DNA of 64,000 nt, from assembly GCA_030248225.1 (NCBI GenBank), contig JASANE010011690.1:1-64000 (forward strand), given 5' to 3'. How positions within the stretch are numbered: the stretch's first letter is position 1; every line of letters begins with the position of its first letter. The translations under genes and the position numbers were made by a program. The notes beneath the pieces were generated by a model. The model did no database searches. It was not told the origin of the DNA and saw nothing but the letters and a program-made list of their open reading frames with translations. Origin of the DNA: Trileptium ribeirensis (lineage: Eukaryota > Nematoda > Enoplea > Enoplida > Thoracostomopsidae). Below are positions 7,068 through 47,291 of this stretch, piece by piece.

Positions 7068-7856
7068 CAACAATTTCTCTAATCTACATTTGTTTCTTTT
7101 ATCATTTTAGCTTCCAAAATAAATACAACAATCGAAATTCAGCTTAGGGCTTCCCCATGTTTTTATGCATCGAAAATACCATATAGCAATAAGTTGTCTA
7201 TGTAGTGTACTTCGTTCAGTTACATTACTATTCGTATTTTTAAATCTTTTATGTCCAGAAATGAACACTCCGAGCGGAACGAAATAACAAAAAGATGAAA
7301 TTAATTAATAACCATTTAACCGTTTTTAGCTCGAGTTCTACGATAAACCATTTCGTATACAGTATGAATCTTGTTATTTTTAATTATTACTACTTATTTG
7401 CACTGTATAAAAAATCACTAAAGCAGAATTAATATGTATTGGAGTGCGCGCAAAAAGAAAAAGGCTTCAGTGGAATAAAAACATGCTAGCAAAAATTATT
7501 GCTTTCACAAATAGATAAAATGCTGCAAAAATCCATGATATCATGAACGGAATTTCAATTATATTTACAATATTTTCAATTATTAGAACCTCGTGTTAAT
7601 TAGTCAATTTTAATTTTTCTTAAAAATAATATTTAACGAATATACAATAATATATACGATATATACAGTCTTAATTATTTATAACGAAAAGGATATGTTG
7701 GGCTACTACAATGATCGAAGTAAATTGAGTTTTATCTATTTCTATACTTCATATTGCCTACCGTTCATATTTTTGAACACTCCAATTTGTCAAATAAGTA
7801 CACAGTTTAATTTTAAAAGCACTAAATTTTCTGGATCGTTAAAAATATATATTGGT

Positions 7857-8245
7857 TTTGAGTTCAGGTTTCTTAGCAATAAAATTACCGATTTTGATTT
7901 CAGGTTTCTTAGGAATAAAAGATATAGATTTGAGTTCAGATTTTTAGCAATAAAAGACACCGATTTTGAGTTCAGTTTTCTTAGCAATAAAAGATATCGA
8001 TTTTGAGCTCAGGTTTCTTAGCAATAAAAGATACTGATTTTGAGTTCAGGTTTCTCAGATACCGATTTTGAGTTCAGGTTTCTTACCAATAAAAGATATG
8101 GATTTTGCGTTCAGGTATCTTAGCAATAAAAATGCCGATTTTAAGCTCATCTTTCTTAGTAATAATAGATACTGATTTTGAGTTCATGTTTCTTAGCAAT
8201 AGAAGATACCGATTGTGAGTTCAGGTTTCTTAACAATACAAGATG
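7857..8245 (+). repeat. About 40-bp minisatellite, about 10 units, left arm
   Basis: Roughly ten imperfect units built on GAGTTCAGGTTTCTTAGCAA followed by TAAAAGATACCGATTTT. Some units are truncated (for example near 8055). A 103-codon frame at 7695-8006 consists largely of this repeat translated, so I do not treat it as a gene. Confidence 0.85.
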
Positions 8246-8515
8246 CAGTGTTTATGTAATACTGGGTAACTGTTACAATCGTCACAGAGTGAAATTCTTT
8301 TCTATCTGCTACTGTCACTCTACACTGCACGTGGTGCCAGGAATAACTGTCGAGCGATATAACCTTAGTTCCTTGAGCAAGATAACCTTAGCCAAACTTC
8401 ATATAACCAGTGAGCCATTTTAATCCAATTGCATTCAGGTCTAAGTGCAAGGATCAAGGTTAATGCATTTCTGGTTTGTTACACCAGACTTAATTAACTA
8501 CACTCAGTATCAAAT

Positions 8516-8986
8516 TTAAATCAATTCTTCGGAGCATAATTTCATCAATTTTTTCGCAATACGATTCGAACAAATTACAAATATGTCCAGCAATAGCTCT
8601 TCCTGAATAGAAATCAAGCAAGTGAACAAAGTCAGAGCAAAGGACTCGCAAAATGTCAATCTACAGAAAAAATCAAGCAGTGATATCCGACATAAACGAA
8701 GTTGCACAGTCGCCGAAATATTTATTTCAATAAATGCAGCACAGATGGCGGTGACGACTGCTTTACCAGCGGTCGGTATAATAACTGGATTCACTTTTAG
8801 TGAGTTGGTGTTCCTCGAGAAGTCGTGGTTGCCATTCAAGGCAACGAGTGCGTACAAATCCTTTGTTCGCAATTTCGGATGGCCGCAGCTGCAGCAAATC
8901 AAAGCTTGACTCCGGCAGCAAAAAAATCGAGCCATCGATACAATTTCACGTTGGCTTGTTGGCGCTTGCTGTCCGAGAACAAACAT
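8516..8986 (-). CDS. Unidentified 156-codon open frame, left arm
   Basis: An ATG-initiated frame of 156 codons. It begins MFVLGQQAPTSQREIV, has a cysteine-rich stretch (FFCCRSQALICCSCG, residues about 21-35) and a hydrophobic, LINE-neighbouring C-terminal half with LLDFFCRL and EELLLDIFVICSNRIAKKL. I do not recognise the family. The other strand also has open frames here. The mirror copy at 48414-48884 is open for the same length, although two compensating indels change about 25 residues in the middle. It lies next to the LINE remnant at 9130-9290. It may be a fortuitous frame or a fragment of a mobile element. Confidence 0.25.
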   Translation of the reverse strand: MFVLGQQAPTSQREIVSMARFFCCRSQALICCSCGHPKLRTKDLYALVALNGNHDFSRNTNSLKVNPVIIPTAGKAVVTAICAAFIEINISATVQLRLCRISLLDFFCRLTFCESFALTLFTCLISIQEELLLDIFVICSNRIAKKLMKLCSEELI

Positions 8987-9129
8987 CAGCTACCGAAATT
9001 AAGAAATCTACCTTCACCGAAGTAGTAGCGAAGCAGGTAACTATTGCCACAATATGCCATGCAAAATGACGGAACCTGGTGATGATCCTCCCAGTTGACG
9101 CATCGTAATTTCTGCATTTTCGGAATTGC

Positions 9130-9290
9130 GTTCTGCATACGACCTGGGAACGGCATTTATCAATGCATACTTTCAGTGTTAGAATAGTGGACGCCTGGAA
9201 CTCACTTAAATCCTATTGTGGAATCGCGAACCTATCCATCTTTAAGGAACCACTTCAAAAAATAGACTTTAGGCAGATATCTTTTCAATC
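9130..9290 (+). pseudogene. Non-LTR retrotransposon (CR1/RTE-like) ORF2 C-terminus, left arm
   Basis: The frame around 9163-9280 reads FSVRIVDAWNSL. This matches the conserved tail of LINE ORF2 proteins, where an F-S-x-R-V-V-x-x-W-N-x-L-P motif is followed by a block ending FK-x-x-L-D near the stop. In this arm the motif then shifts frame (FKEPLQKIDF is out of register). The upstream reverse transcriptase and endonuclease are absent, so only the 3' end of a LINE is left, as expected for 5'-truncated insertions. Assignment to CR1 rather than RTE or Jockey is uncertain. Confidence 0.6.
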
Positions 9291-9629
9291 GCAATATGGG
9301 CCAGATGTGAGTAGGACATGTCTCTTTGTAACCTTATTCTTGTTGGGATCAATGACTCGTTACATGATAACATGTGTTATTAACTTCATGCATTTAAATT
9401 TAATAATAGTTTTTTCTCTGATGCTGCCTTTTCTAACCCCTCTTCGAATATTGTGACCAACGGTTGAATTGATGCTATGGGTGTATTCCGTTGGCTACAC
9501 TATTTAACACAGCGAAATGTTTTCGTAAATAAAACGTTTAAAAAGAATTAAGCGTATGCAGGCTTATGGCACTGTGCTTCCTTCGTTCATGTGTTGCCCT
9601 CCTTGAGGGCACTGTTATTTTCGTATTAA

Positions 9630-10107
9630 TGCGGCGTTCACGTTATAATGTCCCCAACGTTTGGAACCCATGTACACCACACAGTGTCAAGCACACTGTT
9701 GGCAATAAATTTTTTCAAAGGTAGCTAGTTATGCGTATTACCACTTCTCGATAGTGTCAGGCACACCATGTCTTCTGGCAGTTTTATTGACAGCGTTCGG
9801 AATTATTTGAGCAATGTTCATATGGGCTAGATACAAATATCGTAAATTTAGAAAAAAAACTACACAGGACAGTTGACTAATAAACCGCATTAGCTATAGA
9901 CGGTGTTCGTTATAGTTAAATCGCGCCAACTTGGTAGATAAGGGTGTGTACGACACGTGAAAAAATATAGTAGCTAGGGGTGTGTGGTGCACCCTCATGC
10001 AATTTATTTACAGTATGGATGTCACCCTAACTGTCTATACGGTAGGGTCGCGACTAGAGGGGGACAAAAATTCCAAATAGAGGGTACATTATAACGTGAA
10101 CGCCGCA
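9630..10107. mobile_element. PIF/Harbinger-like MITE, 478 bp, left arm
   Basis: Terminal inverted repeats begin TGCGGCGTTCACGTTATAAT at 9630, with the complement ending at 10107. The flanking trinucleotide is TAA on both sides (9627-9629 and 10108-10110), the TWA-type target duplication characteristic of PIF/Harbinger. Internally there are diverged GTGTCAAGCACACTG-like motifs and no transposase, so it is a non-autonomous MITE. Confidence 0.7.
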
Positions 10108-10110
10108 TAA

Positions 10111-12913
10111 CCAGTAAGATTGCATAACTGCTGTAACCCATTTCGTTTCAAAAAACCAACACTCAAATCTTGCCTGGAAGTGTCACTCAACGATGTTCCA
10201 AGCTTGTTCGGTTAATATTTTCCAATGCAGTTTTATACTAACGTCTGAAAGTATCACCAAACCAACATATCAACCGCCATAAGATATAATTCAGAAACTA
10301 GTATTTCCATTACGCAGGTTCAGTTTTAATGATTTTATTTTCTTCTGAGTGTTCAAATGAATAACAATAACGATCAACAAATAATTGGTATATAATGTCG
10401 ACTTGTTATTGTTCTTTACATCATTCGTTTTAATAATGATACTCATTTGCTAGCCAGCCATTTGCTATTTATGCATACGAAATTAATCAATAACTGAGAG
10501 AACAAAGTTCTAAGCATTCCAAAATGTTTTGGGCTCTTGAGGTTTAGAAGCAAAATGTTAAAATTAGTCACTTTACAGTATTTATTTTGAAAGAGGAGCG
10601 AGAATGTATATGTAACGGACTAACGGGAAATATAGAGTTGATAGATCTGTTTGATATTTTGTTGATATTGTTTTCATAAATTGCATTTTTAAAACTTTAG
10701 AGCTGAGGCTCCTATTATAATTTGTCAAACAATAACTTACTGTTGTTTGTCTAAGACAGACCACAGTAATGTTATAAAGGAAATCTTATGGAGATGTGTA
10801 CTAGTAGCAAATAGTACGTGTCCGTCCGTAATACTCTTAGAATAGGCCCACCCTAGGCCTTATTTATTCCATGTGCCCCTACACTTGCCAAAGTGTCAGA
10901 GAAAATTTTAGCTATTACGTGGCAAAATTTCCAAAACATGAAGAAAATATGAGGAACTTGGGGATATATACGACAGTTACATTGGGATCATGGCCAACTG
11001 CACACACATGACACGTTATATATATCTACAGCATACCACTGTGCAATTAATATCGGTCCATTAATTCGGTCTGTGAATAAACGTGTAAATTTGTTTTATT
11101 TTAAGTGTTTTCACGAGAACAGCTTTGACGTAAACTGAGTTCTTGAGGACAACAAACAATCCAGTTAAAGGTAAACAAAATACTCTTGTCAATTTGTTTA
11201 TTGTAAGCCTGGCTTGGTTATTGGTTGTTGCCCATGTCATCTTTAGGTAATATCATTAGAAAAATAAACAAATTATAGATTGTCTACCTAAAAACTGAAT
11301 GGGGGAATAAAATTTGAACCACAAAAAATAAAATTACTGGGTATTGATTTTACCTGGAGAATGAAATGAATGCGTCCAATTTATCAGTACTCACAAAATT
11401 TTCAAATTACTGTGCTATTTTTGATCCACCCACAGTTTTGCAATTGCTGGGTGTATCCAATTTATTGATGCCCAGTAATTGTCTGGGTCGTGTTTAAAAT
11501 GGTATCTATCGCAATAAATGTAAAGCATCTATTTGCATTTCACTGTATAAAAACATTCTCAATACTTTCACTGTTGTAACGCTTTGGAAATGCTGAATCA
11601 TTTGTAATATTATCTGTTTCTTTAATTAATGACAAATTTAAACATACGTCGGTTGCACTAGGATAAATTATTTAGTACATTTAAAATTAAAGTAATTAAT
11701 GTTTGTCAACAGTGCGACATATAGCATTGCATATAGAAACTTCTAAAATGATTTTCAGAACAGCACGATTGGTTGACAATATCGTTTGCAAGCAGGAATG
11801 TCAATGCTAATGGCAGACATTTAACGTAACCAACTCATTGATCCTCGACACGGGAATTTAACTATAATTGTAGTTGCTTAGAAACCAAGTCAAAGCAACA
11901 CGACTATATCCCGAATACAAACAAGGGTGATCAGCTCTAAAGGCAGATTTAGGAATTACCAGTTACACAGTTTCAGTAGCCACTTAGTGACCGGAGCACT
12001 AAATAAAGTTAATATATGTAGTCTAATATCTCCCAAGTGCTATACGCTTTTTTATCGGACTAATATCTACAACTGTTTGGCAATATGGGTATTGTAGAGT
12101 CGAATTTGGAACCGTACTGATGCTGTTAGAAGGATCGTTGAAACAATTACAAAACAAATTAATTTAGAAAATGTCTTAGAACCTACTTAGCTTAGTTTGA
12201 AACTAATTCAGCAAATAGATTTGCATGTAGAGTAGCTAAGATGTGCTATCCTATATAAGCATCATGGTTGAGGTTCAGCCAGTTCAATCTTGTTGGCTTT
12301 GTGTAACCATGCCATTGTCATTCTTGCATGGTTGTGCTTAAATAAACTTTTGTTGTGTCAAGCAAGGCACGATTTCTTTCCAATGAACTGAATTAGCTTT
12401 GGCTTCATAAATTTATGGATTTTTAACGGCACGCAAAACTTACAATAGTCACTAATCGCATATATGTGCAATGTTTTCATTTCCCCTTGTTGCGCGAATG
12501 AGTAATTTCGGTCGCTCGAGACAAAATAAGCGTAACCATCACTAAACGCTCAGTAGTCATCGCATAACTTACTGCGATCTGTGCACATATTTTGGATTTC
12601 TTTACTCTTTCCGCAAAGGATTACGACAGAATAATGTAACCACCGTTAGGGTAACAATGACGGAGTGCAATATTCTCAGTTCTTTTTACCCAGTCGTGCA
12701 GCTACTATGATTCTTGATGCAACTGCCGTTCAAAGATATTACTCATCATTACAGAATCGTGTAGCAAATTTGGTTACCGTTACAAACAACGTGCAAGATC
12801 TAGCTTTGTTTTTACAAGCCGTGTAACACTATAGGCACTGTGCAAAACATAAGTTGTCGAACAAAGATTGTAGTGTCTCATAAAGTCTAATCGTCACAGT
12901 GTAACAAAGAAAT
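10111..12913. other. AT-rich arm sequence, no gene seen, left arm
   Basis: About 2.8 kb between the MITE and the LTR retrotransposon. Short frames only (for example 10582-10764 minus). A pair of AATTACTGGG motifs in opposite orientation at about 11333 and 11480 is too weak to call an element. GTAAC-containing words are frequent at 12600-12910. The mirror is 44482-47291. Confidence 0.6.
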
Positions 12914-13336
12914 TGTAAAAGATCCATTTATGCAACTGAACACTCGCGGTACTACTAAAGCAATGATGACAAACAAATTAGTTTATTGGTAAACTACGTG
13001 GTATCATGCGAACAGAAAACTAAATATTGGTCTTCCAGAATGTGGACATTCCCTTATATAGTCTCAGATCTCCGTATTCGTTTTCATTCATTTTCGGGAT
13101 TGTTCTTGTTTCGAACGAAGTATACTGTATCCACAATCTCTATAATATATTCTCAGAGAAAGAACAACGGCTAGTATAATAGTCGCAAAGATTATCAAAG
13201 GTTGCTTCGAATCCAGATAAAACAGCAAAACGTTTTATTTCTCATCTGGGACTGATCAATACTATTCCAATAGAGAAAACTTGAGCGACATGTGAGTGTT
13301 TTCCGCTTCCGCTATTCTTAGCCAGAAGTCGCTACA
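12914..13336 (-). repeat. 3' LTR of the left-arm Gypsy element
   Basis: About 423 bp with TGTA...TACA ends (read on the minus strand it begins TGTAGCGACTTCTGGC and ends AATCTTTTACA-like). It contains the 3'-specific variant CTATATAAGGGAATGTCC around the TATA box, shared with the 3' LTR of the right arm. The purine-rich tract ACCGGGGGAGTTC lies immediately before it (13337-13349) as the likely polypurine primer. Confidence 0.85.
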
Positions 13337-13782
13337 GAACTCCCCCGGTTTAAGCGGAGCGCTGACCACAAACGGAGAAGGAATCGCACCGCCTTATTGG
13401 CTGTTGCAGCACTTGCGAGCGTCTTGAAGTTCCGGGCTATCTTGTATGCTTTGAGAAGATACTGACGATTTGCAGTTGTAGTCGGGCGGAATGATTGAGT
13501 AGCCGACTGAGAAACGAATGCCAAATGGTTAGTTCCGAAGAACTTCACAGCAATCGATTCTTGTGGACGCTTGAGTGTTGCAAGCTCCGTCCCGTCTGGC
13601 GCAATGACCTGTGCAGGCCAATACGGCCAATTTCGAACCTTCGCTATGATGACCGTCCTTTTTCTCGGAGGGTTGTGGTTTGGATTCGTTGCATCAATTC
13701 GAGCCGGCACGTCTTTATTGCTGTGTTGCAGGAACGAAGATTTCACACGATCAAGACTGACCCGGTCCTCGCCGTCTCGCAT
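13318..13782 (-). CDS. Integrase tail with fused PWWP domain, left arm
   Basis: An open frame of 154 codons that is the uninterrupted 3' end of pol. Residues 1-17 finish the GPY/F-like integrase C-terminal module (VSLDRVK). Residues 18-40 are a basic, proline/asparagine-rich linker. Residues about 41-125 form a PWWP domain: IIAKVRNWPYWPAQV corresponds to the F-A-K-x-x-x-x-P-x-W-P-A-x-V signature of HDGF/LEDGF-type PWWP domains, VKFFGTNHLAFV to their V-x-F-F-G-T-x-x-x-A-F strand, and LLKAYKIARNF to the C-terminal helix. The aromatic-cage candidates are W52, W55 and F81 (numbering from the ATG). PWWP domains bind H3K36-methylated nucleosomes and DNA. The last six codons run through the polypurine tract into the 3' LTR. 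The ATG is internal; in a live element this would be part of the polyprotein. Confidence 0.85.
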   Translation of the reverse strand: MRDGEDRVSLDRVKSSFLQHSNKDVPARIDATNPNHNPPRKRTVIIAKVRNWPYWPAQVIAPDGTELATLKRPQESIAVKFFGTNHLAFVSQSATQSFRPTTTANRQYLLKAYKIARNFKTLASAATANKAVRFLLRLWSALRLNRGSSVATSG

Positions 13783-14278
13783 CTGAACGACGACAGATTT
13801 GTCGTCTCGATCTTTGACATCGAAAGGTCTAACGTATCGAGGTTGAAGAGTCGATTTTACAGAATCGTCTCGAATTCACACATGACGGGCAGCCGCCAGA
13901 TCAGGAGGGATACACCATGGTGCTGAATGACAGCACTCGGGTGTATTGATTTGGCGGATCCTAGCAAACAATCTTGTCATGAAGTTGTGTTCAGAAATGT
14001 TCGCTGCAGGTTGGAGTGTGAAATAATGATGCGGCAACTCGATGCTTGAACCAAACACCATTTGACAAGGAGTAAATAAAGCCTTTGTCATTGAACTCTG
14101 ATCGGATAGCTAGAAGGACCAGCGGAAGTGACGTTTTCCATGATTTGGTGGCGCCATGTGAACGAAGGCCCGCCTTGAGCGTCCGGTGGAATCGTTCAAC
14201 AGCTCCGTTGCATGCGGGATGGTACTCGGTGGTTCGGCGACGGTCGATTCCCAATTGTTCCATTAAGGACGACCACAA
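13783..14278 (-). pseudogene. pol: Integrase core C-terminal part, left arm
   Basis: Begins just after the deletion. The minus strand reads SLMEQLGIDRRRTTEYHP and then NGAVERFHRTLKAGL. The glutamate at 14192-14194 is the E of the integrase D,D-35-E triad. A frameshift near 14090 passes to a frame with FTPCQMVFGSSIELPHHYF, the standard Gypsy integrase segment equivalent to L-V-Y-G-x-x-L-R-L-P. A further shift leads into the GPY/F-like module QPRYVRPFDVKDRDDK at about 13783-13840. The HHCC zinc finger and both catalytic aspartates are absent. Confidence 0.82.
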
Positions 14279-15060
14279 TGCTTATTCGAATTGGCCACGC
14301 GATAGGAAATTAGAACGCGGGTAAGACCGAATCGACTTATCCAGTAAACTCGAGAAATGGATACAGAAATCGACTTATCCAGTAAACTCTGGAGCCACGA
14401 GAAATGTTTCAAGGCCTTGAATATAGCCAGTAGTTCTCTGTCGAATGTCGATTTCCTCAACTCGAGTTCGGTGAGCTTCTCCGAATAGAACGCGAGCGGC
14501 TGACTGTTTCCATCGATAATTTGACTCAACGCTCCACCAACGGTAGTCCCTGAGGCGTCGGTAGGTAGTTGAATTTTAGCTGCTGGATGAGGAAAAGCCA
14601 GAGTGACAGCACTGACGAGAGCAGCTTTCAAATCCTGGAAGGCTTTGTCGGTTTCAGTTGTCCAATTGAGTTTGAAATTGCCTTTGTTAACTCTGCCGCG
14701 AGTTAGGTCTGTCAGCGGGGCAGCGACCTTTGAAAACGCCTGGACGAATCGATGATAGAATCCGGCCACTCCTAGAAAACGTCGCAATTCCTTGAACGTT
14801 TCCGGACGGCTAAACTCGGTTATCGCCTTTATTTTGATCGGTATTAGGCGAACACCGTCGGCATCCACTTCGACCCCGACAAAATTGACCTTCGAGGCGA
14901 AAAGGACGCACTTATTCGGCCATAGGCGAAGTCCGTGTTTGTCGAGGCGACGGAAAACTTCATCAAGATGCAGCAGATGATGTTCCGGATCGTTACTTGC
15001 TACCAGGATGTCGTCCAAATATACTTTGACGGATGGGACGTCTGTAAATATCGAATCCAT
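14263..15060 (-). pseudogene. pol: Reverse transcriptase palm, RNase H and deletion junction, left arm
   Basis: Open for 265 codons from ATG 15060. The catalytic motif VYLDDILVAS (YLDD at 15010-15021) is intact, followed by the thumb and connection ([13 protein letters not shown]) and RNase H motifs DASGTTVGGAL (about 14530-14560) and STFDRELLAIFKALKHF. After this the frame jumps into a short repeat and then unrelated residues, where the end of RNase H and the integrase zinc finger plus the first two catalytic acidic residues should be. The deletion is shared with the right arm. This is the longest undamaged part of pol. Confidence 0.88.
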
Positions 15061-16085
15061 TAGGCGCTGAAAATTTTGCGCGGGATTTCGAAACCGAAGA
15101 ACATCCGTCGAAATAGGAAAAGTTCGAACGGATTAGCAATCGCCGTTTTCGGTTGATCTTGCTTAGCGACAGGGATTTGAGTTTAGGCACACACTAGATC
15201 CAGATTCGAGAAAACTGACGTGCCGTAGATATCTCTAGGTAGATCTTTGAGATTTGGCATGGGGTAGCGAGCCGGAACCGTTTGTTGGTTGAGGTTGCTG
15301 TAGTCACCGGTTGGACGCCATGGTGTTTCTGAGTCGGACTTCGGCACCATGTGTACAGCGGAGGCATAACGGGAATCCCCGCGATAGACGACGCCATGTT
15401 GCTCCCGCTCGGCGAACACCTTTTTTGCGTCTTCTAGTTTTTGTCCGATTAAACGTCGCGGGCGCTCGAAACACGGAGGCCCTCTTGTAACAATTTGATA
15501 CTCGATGCCGTGGACTGGGCGGGTGAATGCATCTACCGGTTTGAAAATGTTGGGGAATTGCCCTAAGCGCTTATTGACCGGCTCGGAAAATCTAGGCATA
15601 TCTACCCGAAATCCCAGATTTGACTGCGCGGAAGTTATCGCTGAGCTACACGCGGTTGGACGGGATCGTTCGAGGGCCGGAATTAGGCAGTTGTTGACGC
15701 ATTCAACTGCGAAACCGTAGTGGCAGAGAAAATCACGCCCGAGTATTGGGTTTCCAAACTCGGTGACATAGAACACCCACGAGAATTTGTTCGAGAAACC
15801 ATCAAGTTGAAACGACAGCGCGCATGTGCTTTTGATATCGACTGGGGTACCGTTGACAGCATGGACATCTATGCGTTCGGAGCGGATGGGCATGTAGTTC
15901 GGCGCACTAGACGGGGGAAGGAATGATATTGAGCTTCCAATGAAACGACCGAACGGTTAAACGCCGATAAACACAGCATGGATGCCCCCCCACAGCCTGC
16001 TGTTCTAGCAATGGGGTTACCAATTTTCCGGACCCAGAGTGGAATGTCGTTGTCCGTCTGCGTCAGATTGTCGCTTAAACGAACA
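14993..16085 (-). pseudogene. pol: Protease and reverse transcriptase N-terminal part, left arm (frameshifted)
   Basis: Downstream of the knuckle the frame reads TAGCGGASMLCLSAF, aligning with the aspartic protease active site, but CGGAS stands where DTGAS or DSGAS is expected. The next frame (15183-15893) has the protease flap-to-C-terminal region (NPILGRDFL, a normal Gypsy protease motif) and the start of reverse transcriptase (HGVVYRGDSRYASAVHMVPK, then VFSNLDL). A frameshift at about 15185 moves the fingers/palm segment into another frame (15190-14993). Several lesions, so no protein is made. Confidence 0.8.
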
Positions 16086-17241
16086 GAATTCGGCATCAAG
16101 CAACGTTGCACTTTATCGTCAAACTTGTTGTGATACCAACACAGGCCGGTTGAACGGTTGCGTGATTGCGGCCTTGACCTGAATCTTTTCGATTCGCGAC
16201 GACCTTTGTCGAAGTAGGCGTCGGCTTGTCCACGATACCGTCGGCGATCGCTTGACTTGCTTCGATTTGAGAGCTGACGAACGGCTGCGCTTAGCTCAGC
16301 TATTTATCCCTCGATCGACGATTGCCATTGATCGACCTTTTTGTGACTTGATTGCACCGAGCGCACTTGATTGACCAAGCTTGGATCGGCCATCTGTGTC
16401 AGCGATGCGGGCCAGCTATTCAAGCTTGACGTGTCCATCTCTATAAGCGTGAGGCGACTTCGCTCGGGTAGAATCTTGAGGAACTGCAGACGAACCAACT
16501 CAAAGAGTTCCCGGAGTGCGCTTGAGGGCTTGCGGCTTTTGAAGTCCTTTTCGGCTAGCAGCTTGCGTAGGCGGCGGTTGTCGCTGTCAGCGTAGTGCTT
16601 GATCTGCGTGCATTTCAGGTCACCGTAGGACGCATTGAGGTTGCCGCCCGATTCGTGTATCATCGAATTGTCAACCACACGGAGGATGTTGCGATTCTGC
16701 ACGTCGTCACTGACGTTGCCAAGAATTTGATTGATCTGGTTGAATCTCGATTGCAGGGTCTTTGGATTGAACTGTGGCAGCGTATGGAATTGTAACGATT
16801 GGGTACCCACGTGTTGATTGGCTTCGACCGCAGCGGCACCTCGAAACCTTGCGATCGTTAATTGGCTGTGAGCTAGCGCGATGACATCCGGTTCGAAAGG
16901 GGTCAGTCGTGCAATAATGTCCTCCTTAGTCGGGCAAGACAAATGGTTCGTCACTCGACTTGAGGAGTTGCAACATGCCCCAATGTATCTTTGTTCTGTT
17001 GCGAGCAAATTGATAGGTCAGAGGATTTTGTTCGATGTACCAGATCACCAGGAGGACGCGGAGGAATGTCGCTTGTAGGCTGTTGAGGCATTGACCAGTT
17101 AACTGTGACACTCCGATTGAAACGATTCCCACAATGGGCTTTGGTCTGGCTGACCGCGTTTGCGGCGGACGAGGTCATTTGAGGTGACTTGGCACCAGGC
17201 CCACGGAAATTCGTATCGTGACGATTAGGCTTGAACACCAT
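16060..17241 (-). pseudogene. gag: Gag of the Gypsy element, left arm (broken)
   Basis: The likely start is the ATG at 17241 (MVFKPNRHDT). The frame shifts near 16990, and the main Gag body lies in the frame at 16304-17008, including IKHYADSDNRRLRKLLAE and ALRELFELV, a block typical of CsRn1-clade Gag. A stop or frameshift at about 16304 separates it from the knuckle. At 16087-16143 the minus strand reads CWYHNKFDDKVQRC, a C-x2-H-x9-C motif. The fourth cysteine is lost here because a single base is missing relative to the right arm. Gag would package the RNA and form the particle; this copy cannot. Confidence 0.8.
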
Positions 17242-17359
17242 CGAATATTGTAGCTGAACGAACGGCGGTGCCCAAGAACTAGTAATAAGAGCGGCAACAC
17301 CGCAAAAAAACACCTGGAATAAAAAAAGCGGCTAGACGTGCCATGACAGGTTCACCCAT

Positions 17360-17796
17360 TGTAAAAGATTTATTTATGCGACTGGAAACACTTGCAGTCT
17401 TACTTAAAGCCAATGATGACAAACGAATTAGTTTTATTGGTAAACAAGTGGTATCGCGGTTTAAGAAACTGGACATTGCTTACTTGCAGAATGTGGACAT
17501 CACCTTATATAGGCTCAGATCTCCGTATTCGTGTTCTCATCTCATTTTCAGGATTATTCTTGCTTTGAACAAATTATACTGTATCCACAGTATTTATAAT
17601 ATATTCTCAGAGAAAGAACAACGGCTAGTATAATCATCGCAAAGATTATCAAAGGTTGCTTCGAATCCAGATATCGAAGACGGCAAAACAATTTATTCTT
17701 CATCGGGGACTGATCAATACTATTCCAATGGGGAATTTTTGAGCGACATGTGCGTGTTTTCCGCTTCCGCTTATTATTTAGCCAGAAGTCGCTACG
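17360..17796 (-). repeat. 5' LTR of the left-arm Gypsy element
   Basis: About 437 bp, roughly 10% diverged from the 3' LTR. On the minus strand it carries the TATA variant CCTATATAAGGTGATGTCC, shared with the 5' LTR of the right arm. The first base has mutated (CGTAG in place of TGTAG). Just inside it, on the minus strand, is TGGGTGAACC, a corrupted primer-binding site. The right arm has TGGTGAACCCG, weakly like the TGGTGA start complementary to tRNA-Trp used by CsRn1 elements. Confidence 0.85.
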
Positions 17797-17899
17797 GCGC
17801 TATCGCATCCCAAGCATCGTGGCCCTTTGCCTAGCAGTGCGCAGTACGTGCACATACTAAAAGATGGGTCAAGATTTACTACCAGTGAGCAGCGAACAT

Positions 17900-18310
17900 T
17901 ATAACTGCGGAATATCACTTCATGTTTTCAGCAACTTCAACAACTTTTAAAATCACAGAATGCCACACAAGCATGCATGTATAAGGGGGTTGATTCCGCG
18001 TTGATACAGCGCCATTCCAGAAGAGGACGCGTTCATTAGAAGATGCCCGTTCAATCAGTAACTGCATCGTTTTCGGCGTTGTTGAAAACCTATGTAATCG
18101 CACAACCGCAGATGCAACAAAATTCGACACTAAGTTCGGAAACCACGAAATTATGCGGTGTTAGTGGGAGAGGGGATCCGAACTGATGCAGTGCCGTTAT
18201 CAAAATGTCACATCAGTAACATATATATTCCAATCAATTATGTCATCGTTTTCAGCAGCCTCGACAACCTTAGTAATCACAGGTGCAACAAATTACCGAT
18301 ACAATAGCAT
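17900..18310. repeat. Degenerate direct repeats of about 150-180 bp beside the 5' LTR, left arm
   Basis: Three diverged copies of a block with CATCGTTTTCAGC, a CAACxxxTxTAATCACA core and GATGCAACAAA start near 17919, 18066 and 18244; a fourth lies at about 19543. It looks like an eroded tandem repeat interrupted by unique DNA. Frames across it (17915-18130 minus) are not recognised. Confidence 0.5.
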
Positions 18311-20039
18311 AAGTTTGCTGTAAAATATAATGGTATATTTTAAATGCAACAGCAGTGTGATAGAAAGCTAAAGAAGCAGCAACTGTTTTAATGGGAACAA
18401 TTGCAAAAATTGTGGTAATCATATGAAAGTAACTCTAGAAACAATTGAACAGTATATGTACCAGGTAGTCCAGGCAGAAATATAGGGGCAAGCTCTTCCC
18501 TCTTATGTCTGTCTTAGAGGTTTCTGTTATCACTCCGAAAAATGATTTAGGAGTTAATTTCGTTTAGCAGTTCTACTTCAGCACAGTGCGAGGTTTAAGC
18601 GTGGATCAACGGCTGCTTATTTATCTTTCTCATGAAGCTTATTCTATATATTGATGTTAAAGCATAACTAATTGAGTTAGACCTAGATTTTTGTCTTATG
18701 CATCCTTTATTGAATAACCACATGAAATGTACTTTCAACTAATTGGAATAGTTCTCTTGTCTTAATTTCAATTTCACCATGCAAACTCTTGCCATACTAT
18801 TGCTAAATCAAAGCGCAGTCGCCTTAAATTTTGCATATATTTTAGCTGAAGCGTTGCAATCGGTTGCAATAAGTCTTTTGATATTAAGTTGTAACATTAG
18901 CTTCAAGTCGTAAGATATCGTTACACTTACCAATAATGGAAAGGGGGAACAACAGAAATTTATTGTCTACCTAGGTAAACACAGCCTTTTGCATTCACTG
19001 GCCTTGTTTATATGGCGCGCTTTGGGCACCTTGTTGCTGTCATATTTCGCTGCCACGCTAGTGTCCAGTTTTTAAACGTATTTTGCAGCAGTTTGGGTAC
19101 AAGAACAACAGCTTGTGGATAAATCAACTTTGTAACTTCTTCAATCATTTTTAATGTCGTCGGCAAAAATATAAAAGTTTCCAGTTATTAATGTATTTTA
19201 CAAAATAGATCATTTATATACAATATCAATTTTGGCTGGTTGAAACTCTTGTCTTTGATGCAAGACCGATATAACTCGGTACGAGTTCGAAGTAGCTAAA
19301 ATGATTTTAAGAACGAAATTCGCGCTAAACTTTTGGTCGAGTTCAATAGGTGACCGGTATTGCCTAAACCCGACAACCAGTGTCCTAACTTGTTCAGAGG
19401 AACTGCATCAAAGGCTTTGATAAACTATTAGATTTATATTGAATACCAAAAAATAATTCACAGTTCTTTTCGGTCCCGGGGATACTGTACCGTTCTGACA
19501 AATCAACACAACCCAGACAAAAAATAAGTTCAAATAAATCACACCATCGTATCAGCATACTTGAGAATTTTTATAATCTCAAATGCAACAAAATATAGTA
19601 TTTAACTGCAAGCCACAAAATTCTACACTGCTGGAAGCAGGGTTCCCAGAAGGAACCATGCGGTTTAAACAGGAACACCAGTCACATAATTTGCCTCACC
19701 GCTATCAACAGTTTCGAAATCCAAAACTTTTCTAATAACCATATACTGTGTTTAGAAACTTGTAGTCATAAAATGTTATATATAAAGGGTTTAAATGGGC
19801 ACGTTTCGGACTCCCGTGTTTTGAAAAATATCTACAAATATTTTCTTTCAGTCGAAAGTTGAGGGGTGCCACTTTAACAGGAATTCTACCATATCTCATA
19901 GATAAATTGCCATAATAAAAGCTATATCATCTGGTGGGAATAAAAACCACAGTATCGGCTCTAATATGCTAAACAGCCCGCAGGGGAATATCTTTGTTCA
20001 TTCGATCGAAATACTTTGAGAAACTTTGCCAAGCAAAAG
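18311..20039. other. AT-rich arm sequence, no gene seen, left arm
   Basis: No coding region supported. This is among the most diverged stretches between the arms (the mirror at about 37440-39119 differs at roughly one base in ten, with indels). Confidence 0.55.
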
Positions 20040-21720: not shown

Positions 21721-21801
21721 AATTCATAATGTTTTGGGTTCATAAAATTCACACTTTAATTTTGGCTTTCATTTATCCTAAAATATCGTTGTTAGTAATA
21801 T

Positions 21802-22886: not shown

Positions 22887-23021
22887 AAATAATTTGTGTA
22901 AAATTTTAGATTCAAACTTTAGGTGAATTTTATTTCATACCAATATTTATAAAAAATCAGGCAATAAATATATATGATATAAAATATATAGAAATACATA
23001 TAATATAAGATATGTTTAATT

Positions 23022-23027
<6 letters not shown>

Positions 23028-23090
<63 letters not shown>
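23028..23090. repeat. (TA)n microsatellite, left arm
   Basis: About 30 uninterrupted TA dinucleotides. Confidence 0.95.
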
Positions 23091-23093
<3 letters not shown>

Positions 23094-39119: not shown

Positions 39120-39590
39120 TTACGAAGGTTGTCGAGGCTGCTGAAAACGATGACATAATTGATTTGAATATATATGTTACTGATGTGACATTTTTATAAC
39201 GGCACTGCATCAGTTCGGATCCCCTCTCCCATGAACATCGCATAATTTCGTGGTTTCCGAACTTAGTGTCGAATTTTGTTGCATCTGCGGTTGTGCGATT
39301 ACATAGGTTTTCAAGGATGCTGAAAACGATGCAGTTACTGATTTAACGGCATCTTTGACCAACGCGTCCTTTTTGGAATGGCGCTGTATCAACGCGGAAT
39401 CAACCCCCTGATACATGCATGCTTGTGTGGCATCTGTGATTTTAAAAGTTGTTGAAGTTGCTGAAAACATGAAGTGATATTCCGCAATTATAATGTTCGC
39501 TGCCCACTCGTAGGTTGACCCATCCTCTAGTATGTGCACGTACTGCGCACTGCTAGGCAAAGGGCCACGATGCTCGTTATGCTATAGTGC
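39120..39590. repeat. Degenerate direct repeats beside the 5' LTR, right arm
   Basis: Mirror of 17797-18310. A 116-codon frame on the minus strand (39210-39560) spans two repeat copies. It is not open in the left arm and shows no recognised domain, so I treat it as a chance frame. Confidence 0.5.
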
Positions 39591-40011
39591 TGTAGCGACT
39601 TCTGGCTAAGAATAGCGGAAGCGGAAAACACGCACATGTCGCTCAAGTTTTCTCTATTGGAATAGTATTGATCAGTCCCCGATGAGAAATAAAACGTTTT
39701 GCTGTTTTATCTGGATTCGAAGCAACCTTTGATAATCTTTGCGACTATTATACTAGCCGTTGTTCTTTCTCTGAGAATATATTATAGAGATTGTGGATAC
39801 AGTATACTTCGTTCGAAGCAAGAATAATCCCGAAAATGAATGAACACGAATACGGAGATCTGAGCCTATATAAGGTGACGTCCACATTCTGGAAGAACAA
39901 TGTTTAGTTTTCTGTTCGCTGATACCACTTGTTTACCAATAAACTAATTCGTTTGTCATCATTGCTTTAGTAGTACCGCAAGTGTTCAGTTGCATAAATA
40001 AATCTTTTACA
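39591..40011 (+). repeat. 5' LTR of the right-arm Gypsy element
   Basis: 421 bp, starts TGTAGCGACTTCTGGC and ends AAATCTTTTACA. A TATA box (CTATATAAGG, about 39866) and AATAAA (about 39939) give a plausible U3/R layout. TGGTGAACCCG at 40013 is the candidate primer-binding site. Confidence 0.88.
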
Positions 40012-40123
40012 ATGGTGAACCCGTCACGGGCACGTCAGCCGCTTTTATTCCAGGTGTTTTTTGGTGTTGCTGTCTTTATCACCAGTCTTGGGGCACCCGC
40101 CGTTCGTTCAGCTACAATATTCG

Positions 40124-41375
40124 ATGGTGTTCAAGCCTAATCGTCACGATACGAATTTCCGTGGGCCTGGGTGCCAAGTCACCTCAAACGACCCTCGTCC
40201 CGCCGCAAACGCGGTCGAGCGAAATACCAAAAGCCCATTGTGGGAATCGTTTCAATCGGAGTGTCACAGTTAACTGGTCAATGCCTCAACAGCCGACAAG
40301 CGACATCCCTCCGCGTCCTCCTGGTGATCGGGTACATCGAACAAAATCCTTGACCTATCAATTTGTCGCAACAGAACAAAGATACATTGGGGCATGTTGC
40401 AACTCCTCAAGTCGAGTGACGAACCATTTGTCTTGCCCGACTAAGGAGGACATTATTGCACGACTGACCCCTTTCGAACCGGATGTCATCGCGCTAGCTC
40501 ACAGCCAATTAACGATCGCAAGGTTTCGAGGTGCCGCTGCGGTCGAAGCCAATCAACACGTGGGTACCCAATCGTTACAATTCCATACGCTGCCACAGTT
40601 CAATCCAAAGACCCTGCAATCGAGATTCAACCAGATCAATCAAATTCTTGGCAACGTCAGTGACGACGTGCAGAATCGCAACATCCTCCGTGTGGTTGAC
40701 AATTCGATGATACACGAATCGGGCGGCAACCTCAATGCGTCCTACGGTGACCTGAAATGCACGCAGATCAAGCACTACGCTGACAGCGACAACCGCCGCC
40801 TACGCAAGCTGCTAGCCGAAAAGGACTTAAAGCAGTTAGCCCTCAAGCGCACTCCGGGAACTCTTTCAGTTGTTTCGTCTGCAGTTCCTCAAGGAGTTCT
40901 ACCCGAGCGAATTCGCCTCACGCTTATCAAGATGGACACGTAAGAGTTTGAATAGCTGGCCCGCATCGCTGACACAGATCGCCGATCCAAGCTTGGTCAA
41001 TCGAGTGCGCTCGGTGCAATCGGTATTCGCCAAAAAGGTCGATCAATGGCAATCATTAGATCAAGGAATAAATAGCTGAGCTGAGCTCAAGCCGTTCGTC
41101 AGCTCTCGAATCGAAGCAACGCCAAGCGATCGCCGACAGTATAGTGGACAAGCCGACGCCTACTTCGACAAAGGTCGTCGCAAATCGAAAAGATACAGGT
41201 CAAGGCCGCAATCACGCAACCGTTCAACCGGCCTGTGTTGGTATCACAACAAGTTTGGCGATAAAGCGCAACATTGCTATGGTGCCGAATTCTGTTCGTT
41301 TAAGCGACAATCTGACGCAGACGGACAACGACATTCCACTCTAGGGTCCGGGAAATTGGTAACCCCATTTGCTAG
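40124..41375 (+). pseudogene. gag: Gag of the Gypsy element, right arm (broken)
   Basis: The likely start is the ATG at 40124 (MVFKPNRHDT). A frame of 260 codons (40161-40943) covers most of Gag, including IKHYADSDNRRLRKLLAE, without the shift seen in the left copy near 16990, but it breaks at about 40830-40940. Near 41233 the plus strand reads CWYHNKFGDKAQHC followed by YGAEFC, giving C-x2-H-x9-C-x5-C, the four-residue CHCC-type knuckle of the CsRn1 clade with a somewhat long last spacing. Comparing the two arms shows which lesions arose after duplication. Confidence 0.8.
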
Positions 41376-42700
41376 AACAGCAGGCTGTGGGGGGGCATCC
41401 ATGCTGTGTTTATCGGCGTTTAACCGTTCGGTCGTTTCATTGGAAGCTCAATATCATTCCTTCCCCGTCTAGTGCGCCGAACTTACATGCCCATCCGCTC
41501 CGAACGCATAATATTTCCATGCTGTCAACGGTACCCCAGTCGAAATCGAAAGCACATGCGCGATGTCGTTTCAACTTGATGGTTTCTCGAACAAAGTACT
41601 CGTGGGTCTTCTCTGTCACCAACGTTGGAAACCCAATACTCGGCGTGATTTTCTCTGCCACTACAGGTTTCGCAGTTGAATGCGTCAACAACTGCCTAAT
41701 TCCCGGCCCTCGAACGATCCCGTCCAACCGCGTGTAGCTCAGCGATAACTTCCGCGCAGTCAAATCTGGGATTTCGGGTAGATATGCCTAGATTTTCCGA
41801 GCCGGTCAATAAGCGCTTAGGGCAATTCCCCAACATTTTCAAACCGGTAAATGCATTCACCCGCCCAGTCCACGGCATCGAGTATCGAATTGTTACAAGA
41901 GGGCCTCCGTGTTTCAAGCGCCCGCGACGTTTAATCGGACAAAAACTACAAAACGCAAGAGAGGTGTTCGCCGAGCGGGAGCAACATGGCGTCGTCTATC
42001 GCGGGGATTCCCGTTATGCCTCCGCTGTACACATGGTGCCGAAGTCCGGCACTCAGAAACACCATGCCGTCCGAACCGGTGACTACAGCAACCTCAACCA
42101 ACAAACGGTTCCGGCTCGCTCCCCATGCCAAATTTTTCAAAGATCTACCTCGAGATATGTACGGCACGTCAGTTTTCTCGAATCTGGATCTAGTGTGTGC
42201 CTAAACTCAAATCCCTGTCGCTAAGCAAGATCAACCGAAAACGGCGATTGCTAATCCGTTCGAACTTTTCCTATTTCGACGGATGTTCTTCGGTTTCGAA
42301 ATCCCGCGCAAAATTTTCAGCGCCTAATGGATTCGATATTTACAGACGTCCCATCCGTCAAAGTATATTTGGACGACATCCTGGTAGCAAGTAACGATCC
42401 GGAACATCATCTGCTGCATCTTGATGAAGTTTTCCGTCGCCTCGACAAACACGGACTTCGCCTATGGCCGAATAAGTGCGTCCTTTTCGCCTCGAAAGTC
42501 AATTTTGGCGGGGTCGAAGTCGATGCCGACGATGTTCGCCCAATGTCGATCAAAATAAAAGCGATAACCGATCAGCCTTCCGGAAACGCTCAAGGACTTG
42601 CGACGTTTCCTAGGAGTGGCCGGATTCTATCATCGATTCGTCAAGGCGTTTTCAAAGGTTGTTGCTGCGCTCACGGGCTTAACTCGCGGCAGATCTAACA
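41376..42700 (+). pseudogene. pol: Protease and reverse transcriptase, right arm (frameshifted)
   Basis: Contains the same CGGAS in place of a DTGAS-type protease site (about 41387), then protease (NPILGVIF, where the left arm has NPILGRDFL) and reverse transcriptase in at least four frames: 41784-42224 (fingers), 42197-42394, and 42327-42698 with VYLDDILVAS (YLDD at 42366-42377). A frameshift near 42580 breaks the thumb, which the left arm keeps. Non-functional. Confidence 0.8.
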
Positions 42701-43587
42701 AAGGCAATTTCAAACTCATTTGAACAACTGAAGCCGACAAGGCCTTCCATGATTTGAAGGCTGCTCTCGTCAGCGCTGTCACTCCGGATTTTCCTCATCC
42801 GGCAGCTAAAATTCAACTACCTACCAACGCCTCAGGGACTACCGTTGGTGGAGCGTTTGAGTCAAATTATAAATATGGGAGACAGGTCAGCCGCTCGCGT
42901 TCTATTCGGAGAAGCTCACCGAACTCGAGTTGAGGAAATCGACATTCGACAAGGAACTACTGGCTATATTCAAGGCCTTGAAACATTTCTCGTGGCTCCA
43001 GAGTTTACTGGATAAGTCGATTTCTGTATCCATTTCTCGAGTTTACTGGATAAGTCGATTCGGTCTTACCCGCGTTCTAATTTCCTATCGCGTGGCCAAT
43101 TCGAATAAGCATTGTGGTCGTCCTTAATGGAACAATTGGGAATCGACCGTCGCCGAACCACCGAGTACCATCCCGCATGCAACGGAGCTGTTGAACGATT
43201 CCACCGGACGCTCAAGGCGGGCCTTCGTTCACATGGCGCCACCAAATCATGGAAAACGTCACTTCCGCTGGTCCTTCTAGCTATCCGATCAGAGTTCAAT
43301 GACAAAGGCTTTATTTACTCCTTGTCAAATGGTGTTTGGTTCAAGCATCGAGTTGCCGCATCATTATTTCACACTCCAACCTGCAGCGAACATTTCTGAA
43401 CACAACTTCATGACAAGATTGTTTGCTAGGATCCGCCAAATCAATACACCCGAGTGCTGTCATTCAGCACCATGGTGTATCCCTCCTGATCTGGCGGCTG
43501 CCCGTCATGTGTGAATTCGAGACGATTCTGTAAAATCGACTCTTCAACCTCGATACGTTAGACCTTTCGATGTCAAAGATCGAGACG
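42701..43587 (+). pseudogene. pol: RNase H remnant and integrase core C-terminal part, right arm
   Basis: RNase H is interrupted by stops near 42720 and a changed segment near 42855. LRKSTFDKELLAIFKALKHF is kept at 42927-42985. The deletion junction with two copies of a 21-bp motif follows (about 43011-43069). The integrase segment SLMEQLGIDRRRTTEYHP, then NGAVERFHRTLKAGL, is identical to the left arm (43112-43399). Next come the FTPCQMVFGSS block and the GPY/F-like module. Confidence 0.8.
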
Positions 43588-44009
43588 ACAAATCTGTCGT
43601 CGTTCAGATGCGAGACGGCGAGGACCGGGTCGGTACCGATCGTGTGAAATGTTCGTTTCCTGCCCGACGGCAATAAAGACGTGCCGGCTCGAATTGATGC
43701 AACGAATCCAAACCACAACCCTCCGAGAAAAAGGACGGTCATCATAGCGAAGGTTCGAAATTGGCCGTATTGGCCTGCACAGGTCATTGCGCCAGACGGG
43801 ACGGAGCTTGCAACACTCAAGCATCTCCACAAGAATCGATTGCTGTGAAGTTCTTCGGAACTAACCATTTGGCATTCGTTTCTCAGTCGGCTACTCAATC
43901 ATTCCGCCCGACTACAACTGCAAATCGTCAGTATCTCCTCAAAGCATACGAGATAGCCCGGAACTTCAAGACGCCCGCAAGTGCTGCAAAAGCCGATAGC
44001 GCGGTTTGA
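43588..44009 (+). pseudogene. Integrase tail with PWWP domain, right arm (frameshifted)
   Basis: Mirror of 13318-13782. The PWWP coding sequence is recognisable in two frames: IIAKVRNWPYWPAQV at about 43735-43790 and VKFFGTNHLAFV through LLKAYEIARNF at about 43846-43970. A 2-nt difference at about 43822-43828 (AAGCATCTCC, where the left arm has AAGCGTCC) shifts the frame inside the loop between the first and second strands, and another extra base lies at about 43655. A TGA at 44007-44009 stands where the left arm has an arginine codon. The protein sequence outside these lesions is almost unchanged from the left arm. Confidence 0.82.
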
Positions 44010-44056
44010 TTCCTTCTCCGTTTGTGGTCAGCGCTCCGCTTAAACCGGGGGAGTTC

Positions 44057-44481
44057 TGTAGCGACTTCTGGCTAAGAATAGCGGAAGCGGAAAACACTCA
44101 CATGTCGCTCAAGTTTTCTCTGTTGGAATAGTATTGATCAGTCCCAGATGAGGAATAAAACGTTTTGCTGTTTTATCTGGATTCGAAGCAACCTTTTATA
44201 ATCTTTGCGACTATTATACTAGCCATTATTACTTTTCTCTGAGAATATATTATTACGATTATCAATACAGTCTACTTCATTCGGGACAGGGACAATGCCG
44301 AAAATGAATGAAAACGAATACGGAGATCTGAGACTATATAAGGGAATGTCCACATTCTGGAAGACCAATATTTAGTTTTCTGTTCGCATGATACCACGTA
44401 GTTTACCAATAAACTAATTTGTTTGTCATCATTGCTTTAGTAGTACCGCGAGTGTTCAGTTGCATAAATAAATCTTTTACA
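44057..44481 (+). repeat. 3' LTR of the right-arm Gypsy element
   Basis: 425 bp with TGTA...TACA ends. The polypurine tract CCGGGGGAGTTC lies just upstream (about 44045-44056). It carries the same TATA-region variant (ACTATATAAGGGAATG) as the left arm's 3' LTR. Confidence 0.88.
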
Positions 44482-47291
44482 ATTCTTGTTACACTGTGAC
44501 GATTAGACTTTATGAGACACTACAATCTTTGTTCGACAACTTATGTTTTGCACAGTGCCTATAGTGTTACACGGCTTGTAAAAACAAAGCTAGATCTTGC
44601 ACGTTGTTTGTAACGGTAACCAAATTTGCTACACGATTCTGTAATGATGAGTAATATCTTTGAACGGCAGTTGCATCAAGAATCATAGTAGCTGCACGAC
44701 TGGGTAAAAAGAACTGAGAATATTGCACTCCGTCATTGTTACCCTAACGGTTGTAGTTACACTATTTCTGTCGTAATCCTTTGCGGAAAGAGTAAAGAAA
44801 TCCAAAATATGTGCACAGATCGCAGTAAGTTATGCGATGACTACTGAGCGTTTAGTGATGGTTACACTTTATCTATCTCGAGCGACCGAAATTACTCATT
44901 CGCGCAACAAGGGGAAATGAAAACATTGCACATATATGCGATTAGTGACTATTGTAAGTTTTGCGTGCCGTTAAAAATCCATAAATTTATGAAGCCAAAG
45001 CTAATTCAGTTCATTGGAAAGAAATCGTGCCTTGCTTGACACAACAAAATCTTATTAGAGCGCAACCATACAAGAATGACAATGGCATGGTTTTTACACA
45101 AAGCCAACAAGACTGAAGTCACTGAACCTCAACCATGACGCTGATATAGGACAGCCGATTTTAGGTACTCTACATGCAAATCTATTTGCTGAACTAGCTT
45201 CAAACTAAGCTAAGCAGCTTCTAAACCAGTTTCTAAATTAATTTGTTTTGTAGCTGTTTCAACGATCTTTCGAACAGCGTCAGTACGGTTCCAAATTCAA
45301 CTATTACAATCACCATATTGCCAAACAGTTGTAGATATTAGTCCGATAAAAAAGCGTATAGCACTTGGGAGATATTAGACTACATATATTAACTTTATTA
45401 AGTATTCCGGTCACTAAGTGGCTACTGAAACTGTGTAACTGGTAATTCCTAAATCTGCCTTTAGAGCTGATCACCCTTGTTTGTATTCGGGATATAGTCG
45501 TGTTGCTTTGACTTGGTTTCTAAGCAACTACAATTATAGTTAAATTCCCGTGTCGAGGATCAATGAGTTGGTTACGTTAAATGTCTGCCATTAGCATTGA
45601 CATTCCTGCTTGCAAACGATATTGTCAACCAATCGTGCTGTTCTGAAAATCATTTTAGAAGTTTCTATATGCAATGCTATATGTCGCACTGTTGACAAAC
45701 ATTAATTACTTTAATTTTAAATGTACTAAATAATTTATCCTAGTGCAACCGACGTATGTTTAAATTTGTCATTAATTAAAGAAACAGATAATATTACAAA
45801 TGATTCAGCATTTCCAAAGCGTTACAACAGTGAAAGTATTGAGAATGTTTTTATTCAGTGAAATGCAAATAGATGCTTTACATTTATTGCGATAGATACC
45901 ATTTTAAACACCAACCAGACAATTACTGGGCATCAATAAATTGGATACAACCAGCAATTGCAAAACTGTGGGTGGATCAAAAATAGCACAGTAATTTGAA
46001 AATTTTGTGAGTACTGATAAATTGGACGCATTCATTTCATTCTCCGGGTAAAATCAATACCCAGTAATTTTATTTTTTGTGGTTCAAATTTTATTTACCC
46101 ATTCAGTTTTTAGGTAGACAATCTATAATTTGTTTATTTTTCTAATGATATTACCTAAAGATGACATGGGCAACAACCAATAACCAAGCCAGGCTTACAA
46201 TAAACAAATTGACAAGAGTATTTTGTTTACCTTTAACTGGATTGTTTGTTGTCCTCAAAACTCAGTTTACGTCAAAGCTGTTCTCGTGAAAACACTTAAA
46301 ATAAAACAAATTTACACGTTTATTCACAGACCGAATTAATGGACCAATTATTAATTGCACAGTGGTATGCTGTAGATATATATAACGTGTCATGTGTGTG
46401 CAGTTGGCCATGATCCCAATGTAACTGTCGTATATATCCCCAAGTTCCTCATATCTTCTACATGTTTTGGAAATTTTGCCACGTAATAGCTAAAAATTTT
46501 CTCTGACACTTTGGCGAGTGTAGGGGCACATGGAATAAATAAGGCCTAGGGTGGGCCTTCTAAGAGTATTACGTACTAACACGTGCTATTTGCTACTAGT
46601 ATACATCTCCATAAGATTTCCTTTATAACATTACTGTGGTCTGTCTTAGACAAACAACAGTAAGTTATTGTTTGACAAATGTATAATAGGAGCCTCAGCT
46701 CTAAAGTTTTAAAAATGCAATTTATGAAAACAATATCAACAAAATATCAAACAGATATATCAACTCTATATTTCCCGTTAGTCCGTTACATATACATTCT
46801 CGCTCCTCTTTCAAAATAAATACTGTAAAGTGAATGAATTTTAACATTTTGCTTCTAAACCTCAAGAGCCCAAAACATTTTGGAATGCTGAGAACTTTGT
46901 TCTCTCAGTTATTGATTAATTTCGTATGCATAAATAGCAAATGGCTGGCTAGCAAATGAGTATCATTATTAAAACGAATGATGTAAAGAACAATAACAAG
47001 TCGACATTATATACCAATTATTTGTTGATCGTTATTGTTATTCATTTGAACACTCAGAAGAAAATAAAATCATTAAAACTGAACCTGCGTAATGGAAATA
47101 CTAGTTTCTGAATTATATCTTATGGCGGTTGATATGTTGGTTTGGTGATACTTTCAGACGTTAGTATAAAACTGCATTGGAAAATATTAACCGAACAAGC
47201 TTGGAACATCGTTGAGTGACACTTCCAGGCAAGATTTGAGTGTTGGTTTTTTGAAACGAAATGGGTTACAGCAGTTATGCAATCTTACTGG
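44482..47291. other. AT-rich arm sequence, no gene seen, right arm
   Basis: Mirror of 10111-12913. Similarity is clear throughout, with substitutions and small indels every few tens of bases. No coding region or RNA gene is supported. Confidence 0.6.

Follow-up and report, generated by a model that had tools for sequence, protein, structure and literature searches.

A predicted PWWP domain behind the integrase of CsRn1-like Ty3/gypsy retrotransposons in the nematode Trileptium ribeirensis

The DNA analysed here, hereafter the window, comprises 64,000 nucleotides of contig JASANE010011690.1 (assembly GCA_030248225.1) of the nematode Trileptium ribeirensis, and holds on its minus strand a Ty3/gypsy retrotransposon bounded by long terminal repeats (LTRs). 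The last open reading frame (ORF) of this element, which runs from stop to stop over 185 amino acids (13318-13875, minus strand) and ends a few codons inside the 3' LTR, at the inner edge of the repeat, matches the Pfam PWWP profile PF00855 over residues 74-139 (window 13459-13656; 42.8 bits, E-value 7.7e-11, curated cut-off 25.6 bits). A first-pass annotation had read this frame as a PWWP domain at the integrase end of a Ty3/gypsy element, and the profile match, lying behind a GPY/F-like integrase module, bears this out. The peptides which it quoted do lie in the minus-strand frame, but the ORF is longer than it had stated; of the proposed continuity from integrase to PWWP, the frame shared by the GPY/F-like module and the PWWP stands, whereas the catalytic core is cut off in this copy by a stop at 13876-13878, which closes the PWWP frame upstream. 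A remnant of the core sits in another ORF, and the ORF at 14266-15132, judged by eye against an alignment of relatives, passes from RNase H directly into sequence of the late core, much of the integrase having been deleted. The module itself is degenerate, with VRPF in place of the GPY/F found in relatives. Since the two LTRs are only 85% identical, the insertion is old. Hence, the window copy is an old, broken Ty3/gypsy element whose PWWP frame is severed from the integrase core.

As the frame of the window copy is broken, the continuity of pol and PWWP rests on its relatives. A six-frame search of the 687-Mb genome returned at least 155 matches; among the matches listed, 29 distinct frames reach 1,000 amino acids or more, 27 of them free of stops over the match. 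A PWWP-profile search of the genome scored 150 of 777 candidates, and all 150 lay above the cut-off, although some may be host genes. We worked with 60 matched loci from this genome, two of which are the window's own copies, and hand-picked from them, for diversity, 28 C-terminal pieces of up to 330 amino acids (the window ORF and 27 relatives, the latter 28-46% identical to it). PF00855 was matched in all 28 (E-value up to 0.001), a count that is not an unbiased rate, the query for the 60 loci having itself held the PWWP. Moreover, all 16 pieces of about 700 amino acids carry RNase H, the H2C2 zinc site, the rve core (DDE) and the PWWP in one long open frame, in that order in the one relative displayed in full. 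In the alignment of these 16 pieces the DDE residues, both cysteines and the second histidine of the zinc site are invariant and the first histidine nearly so, the roles being assigned by eye. No Chromo match was obtained in the 28 C-terminal or the 16 longer pieces (E-value up to 0.001). The earlier proposal that the PWWP takes the place held by the chromodomain in chromoviruses is upheld, with pol continuity in many relatives; neither of the two outcomes named in the first pass as refuting it, a failed profile match or relatives with a frame discontinuous with pol, was obtained. The LTRs of one long-open-frame copy are 100% identical over 290 bp and those of another 98.3%, and these two young copies are flanked by 4-bp direct repeats, AACT and TATG, which by eye are target duplications. 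Among five 5' pieces an LTR pair was found in three and none in two; the third pair has an identity of only 86.9%, and no clear target duplication is seen beside it. In our view, the PWWP clade has probably been active in recent times, at least in part.

The best sequence match of the window ORF in the PDB is LEDGF, followed by the HDGF family, in agreement with the HDGF/LEDGF-type signatures noted in the first pass; neighbours in the PDB include MSH6, DNMT3, NSD and HDGF types. The fold model is confident and consists of a five-strand barrel followed by a helix, the domain with its helix reaching to about residue 158 (window 13402). Folding from the single sequence was poor (mean predicted local distance difference test score 38.8) and was discarded. 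In a structure comparison with VIA-align, 50 of 50 listed rows hold PWWP domains, the absence of other folds there being no evidence. The profile of the C-terminal alignment additionally matches the integrase of prototype foamy virus (PFV) over the GPY/F part. The cage of the LEDGF PWWP is formed by M15, Y18, W21 and F44 (excerpt of PMC3663649). Positions equivalent to Y18, W21 and F44 are aromatic in 28 of 28 sequences (window ORF and 27 relatives), and the M15-equivalent position holds F in 20, M in three, V in two, the window copy among them, and I, L and Y in one each. Taken together, the elements have a true PWWP domain at the integrase C-terminus, closest by sequence to LEDGF/HDGF, and the cage residues of a LEDGF-type reader of histone H3 methylated at lysine 36 (H3K36me) are present in it.

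Membership in Ty3/gypsy is indicated by the LTRs, by reverse transcriptase (RT) and RNase H in the window and by RNase H, H2C2 and rve in 16 of 16 relatives. Within Ty3/gypsy, PwRn1 and the AgCRs of the CsRn1 clade are reported, in the excerpt of PMC2582038, to have a primer site for tRNA-Trp and a Gag knuckle of the form CX2HX9CX3C and to lack a chromodomain. In one relative, L061, the primer site complements the 3' end of this genome's tRNA-Trp plus CCA at 18/18 positions; the sites of L062 and L063 match tRNA-Trp less far, and that of the window copy has diverged. The exact knuckle occurs in L058, a PWWP-bearing copy with an internal deletion, where it precedes the integrase-PWWP piece by 136 bases on the same strand. 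Among the loci it is found in none besides L058, most of them holding no gag, and the window copies show a CX2HX9C knuckle without the last cysteine. By these marks the group appears to be CsRn1-like, its relatives in the tree being mostly unnamed proteins and not named CsRn1 references. It shares with the CsRn1-like clade (CsRn1, PwRn1, AgCRs) the tRNA-Trp primer, the Gag knuckle, the GPY/F module and the HHCC and DDE integrase, but differs by the PWWP between the GPY/F module and the C-terminal tail, whereas PwRn1 and the AgCRs are the elements reported without a chromodomain.

With an alignment of the 16 longer pieces as query, 8,000 candidates from among 5.8 billion proteins were scored, of which 5,886 pass an E-value of 1e-10 and 120 were listed. 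PF00855 is annotated in nine of the 120 listed relatives, at ranks 1-8 and 10; of the nine proteins, whose contigs measure 3.8 to 8.0 kb, eight are nameless and one has an evidently automatic name. A protein search with the 185-residue window ORF found nothing, probably since candidates were limited by length, and one with a 684-residue piece found one relative, without PWWP; scans of viral contigs and of prokaryote genome contigs yielded no relatives. The layout of integrase and PWWP is hence general, beyond this copy and this genome, as nine public proteins share it, and a large, little-noticed retrotransposon group seems to have a PWWP-bearing integrase. The frame break between integrase core and PWWP in the window copy could otherwise suggest that this one copy had by chance picked up a host PWWP exon or come to lie beside one. 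We regard the probability of this as negligible: the PWWP lies inside the LTRs, and the 27 relatives in the same genome that carry it at the same place, together with the nine public proteins, rule such a capture out.

Trees were built on RNase H and the integrase core, with the PWWP columns excluded, from 65 and 52 rows chosen out of 87 prepared and 151 usable pieces, near-identical own copies being left out and PWWP-less proteins thinned. All PWWP elements used form one clade together with four close public relatives in which PF00855 is not matched up to an E-value of 0.1 (P0010, P0012, P0013 and P0016), with a Shimodaira-Hasegawa-like approximate likelihood ratio support of 100 for 65 rows and 100/100 for 52 rows. 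In these four the GPY/F module runs into a short tail bearing an [RK]VxF word. A clade of the PWWP elements without the four is disfavoured (approximately unbiased test, p 0.019), and the presence of the PWWP needs three changes on the tree (5-95% range 3-3 over 200 bootstrap trees). Because the PWWP occupies the same place in all elements, the simplest account would be one old gain at the base of the clade with two losses, and the four proteins are likely to have lost the domain.

The features of the window copy and of a second copy are collected in Table 1. The second copy, with LTRs at 39586-40013 and 44052-44483 that are 91.4% identical and with stops in its PWWP frame, lies inside an inverted duplication of about 19.5 kb (7231-26624 against 30830-50173, 95.9% identity, about 4.2 kb between the arms), and we therefore rejected it as an independent insertion or evidence. 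Either this is a genuine segmental duplication of palindromic form, or the assembly has produced it. Tandem repeats at 7850-8270 and 20022-20756, with units of about 37 and about 122 bases, recur in the other arm. Elsewhere in the genome, locus L067 (C17193:64554-65603) holds a frame-broken COX1-like stretch with, by eye, an ND4L-like stretch behind it; the former may be mitochondrial DNA copied into the nuclear genome.

Table 1. Coordinates of the retrotransposon copies and their parts in the window
Feature	Position	Strand	Basis
3' LTR	12912..13335	-	85% identical to 17358-17795, self-BLAST
C-terminal [RK]xVxF-type motif KAVRF	13381..13395	-	translation; motif scan; V in 27/28, F in 27/28 aligned rows
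PWWP domain, residues 74 to ~158, predicted five-strand barrel and C-terminal helix	13402..13656	-	
Variable linker from GPY/F module to PWWP	13657..13731	-	alignment; dN/dS
GPY/F-like C-terminal integrase module, degenerate	13732..13848	-	alignment; profile aligns here to PFV integrase
Integrase catalytic-core remnant, apart from the PWWP ORF	13994..14281	-	Pfam rve_3, E 4.7e-4, below curated cut-off
End of RT and RNase H, then internal deletion of much of the integrase	14266..15132	-	RVT_1 E 2.8e-13, RT_RNaseH_2 E 1.3e-26
Probable end of protease and start of RT	15186..15956	-	motifs by eye in translation; no Pfam match
Probable gag remnant, two ORFs, partial CX2HX9C knuckle	15872..17017	-	translation, knuckle scan; no Pfam gag match
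Primer binding site, diverged, approximate	17340..17359	-	adjoins 5' LTR
5' LTR	17358..17795	-	self-BLAST
Second copy, same insertion, PWWP frame broken	39586..44483	+	94.8% identity across 5.8 kb, flanks included

The ratio of nonsynonymous to synonymous substitution (dN/dS) was estimated by the Nei-Gojobori method over 38 elements, for pairs with a proportion of synonymous differences (pS) of 0.05-0.6. As indications, pooled values are 0.19 for the integrase core (12 of 666 pairs), 0.21 for the GPY/F module (20 of 703) and 0.43 for the PWWP (median 0.32; 25 of 703), against 1.43 for the linker before it (71 of 703) and 1.05 for the tail after it (72 of 553). The PWWP would therefore be kept by selection while both flanking linkers are not; the ratio above 1 in the linker is not claimed as positive selection, the linker alignment being uncertain.

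We consider it probable that the window copy, now decayed, belongs to a CsRn1-like clade that is old, diverse and partly recently active, and whose integrase PWWP most likely docks the intasome on H3K36-methylated nucleosomes. The domain would have been gained once, between the GPY/F module and an [RK]VxF tail, which is shared by PWWP-less relatives, then kept by selection and lost at least twice. As the intasome docks on a nucleosome, a methylated lysine, most likely H3K36me2/3, would sit in the aromatic cage of the domain, its basic face would contact nucleosomal DNA, and the complementary DNA would be inserted in transcribed chromatin; the element might plausibly profit by entering open chromatin that is active in the germline. 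Judged from the cage residues, the fold and the selection, binding of H3K36-methylated chromatin and steering of insertion are both likely. That the lineage evolved a self-contained LEDGF, the integrase-fused PWWP directing insertion to the H3K36-methylated bodies of genes active in the germline, the reverse of what heterochromatin-seeking chromoviruses do, has in our judgement an even chance of being correct.

Several observations weigh against this interpretation. The M15-equivalent position varies, the glycine after FF is lost in 12 of 28 sequences, and W21 and F44 may also serve folding (excerpt of PMC3663649), so that their conservation would partly reflect the fold. The window copy itself is broken, stops fall within the GPY-to-PWWP stretch in L002, L005 and L026, and the frame is lost inside the PWWP in L025 and L053. 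The dN/dS pairs are few and non-independent, some being between families and some with broken copies, and by them the PWWP is under weaker constraint than the integrase core. Likewise, the two losses proposed above would show the PWWP to be dispensable on an evolutionary scale. The sequences show the domain, its position, its continuity with pol in relatives, its conservation, the modelled fold and the clade; methyl-lysine binding, the mark, the DNA contacts and the effect on the insertion site are what we infer. An unlikely alternative, though one deserving attention, is that the PWWP is integral to the integrase but serves as a clamp for nucleosomes or DNA in general, with no real mark preference, raising the efficiency of integration and not choosing its site. 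In the excerpt of PMC3663649 the LEDGF PWWP is described as binding a lone H3K36me3 peptide only at 17 mM and as requiring its basic DNA-binding surface for stable chromatin association, which fits a clamp, as do the two cage positions that may be folding residues and the variable M15 equivalent. However, that variable position is still aromatic in 21 of 28 sequences, and the Y18 equivalent is so in every one, a residue whose effect in LEDGF is greater on specificity than on affinity (excerpt of PMC3663649).

The tail behind the PWWP holds a further signal. An RVxF-like motif, [RK]x(0-1)[VI]x[FW], occurs in 24 of our 28 pieces (2.2 expected on shuffling), and in public proteins in 90 of 105 without PWWP (2.9 expected) and five of seven with it (0.5 expected), together 95 of 112, nine of the 121 proteins being unscored. 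The RVxF tail appears by these counts to be independent of the presence of the PWWP. Seven of the 28 own pieces have a SILK-like word in the linker (0.19 expected), but only three of the 112 public tails contain one (about one expected). RVxF and SILK are docking motifs of protein phosphatase 1, and, as an extension of the reading of the domain as a self-contained LEDGF, the same tail may also dock this phosphatase through the RVxF and, in some families, the SILK-like motifs; we consider this extension speculative and rather improbable. The frequency of the [RK]VxF word in own and PWWP-less public proteins alike hints at other partners of the tail, and the neighbours of the domain in the PDB span several PWWP types. 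Possibly, then, the PWWP reads another mark or has another role, and leaves the choice of site untouched; it could, for instance, keep the pre-integration complex in the nucleus, help the element to escape silencing or take part in assembly. We think this improbable too, as the window ORF is most similar in sequence to the LEDGF/HDGF group and as the integrase C-terminus is a usual site of tethering segments, e.g., in Ty1 (excerpt of PMC10050235).

Lentiviruses are only distant relatives of these elements. The chromoviruses, which seek H3K9-methylated heterochromatin, share with them an integrase to whose end a histone reader of the Royal family is fused; chromoviruses, however, carry a chromodomain, and the elements described herein a PWWP in a CsRn1-type setting. 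A Ty3 polyprotein is reported to be followed by a chromodomain and not by a PWWP (excerpt of PMC5906684). Lentiviral integrase is tethered to chromatin through LEDGF, so that integrase and an HDGF/LEDGF-type PWWP, which would read H3K36me, come together in both systems (excerpt of PMC8149907); here, in contrast, they form one polypeptide, with no borrowed host protein and no need of an integrase-binding domain. By analogy, this single polypeptide would do what lentiviral integrase does through host LEDGF/p75. Engineered fusions also couple a chromatin reader to the integrase, directly or via a tether, and thereby steer insertion (excerpt of PMC8149907), but the fusion in these elements is natural and appears old. 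No published retrotransposon with an integrase-PWWP fusion, and no paper treating PWWP and CsRn1 together, was found in the literature searched, which excludes most subscription papers and all bioRxiv preprints; the novelty supposed in the first-pass annotation is consistent with these searches.

Retroelements and retroviruses settle their insertion site with different readers, the chromodomain being carried by chromoviruses and the PWWP of LEDGF being borrowed by lentiviruses. A natural integrase-PWWP fusion selected across many families would represent an independent evolutionary solution of the lentiviral type. Moreover, the PWWP-less members of the clade may serve as natural controls or sister comparisons for tests of targeting, and the fusion makes testable whether a PWWP in the integrase suffices to send insertions into transcribed genes.
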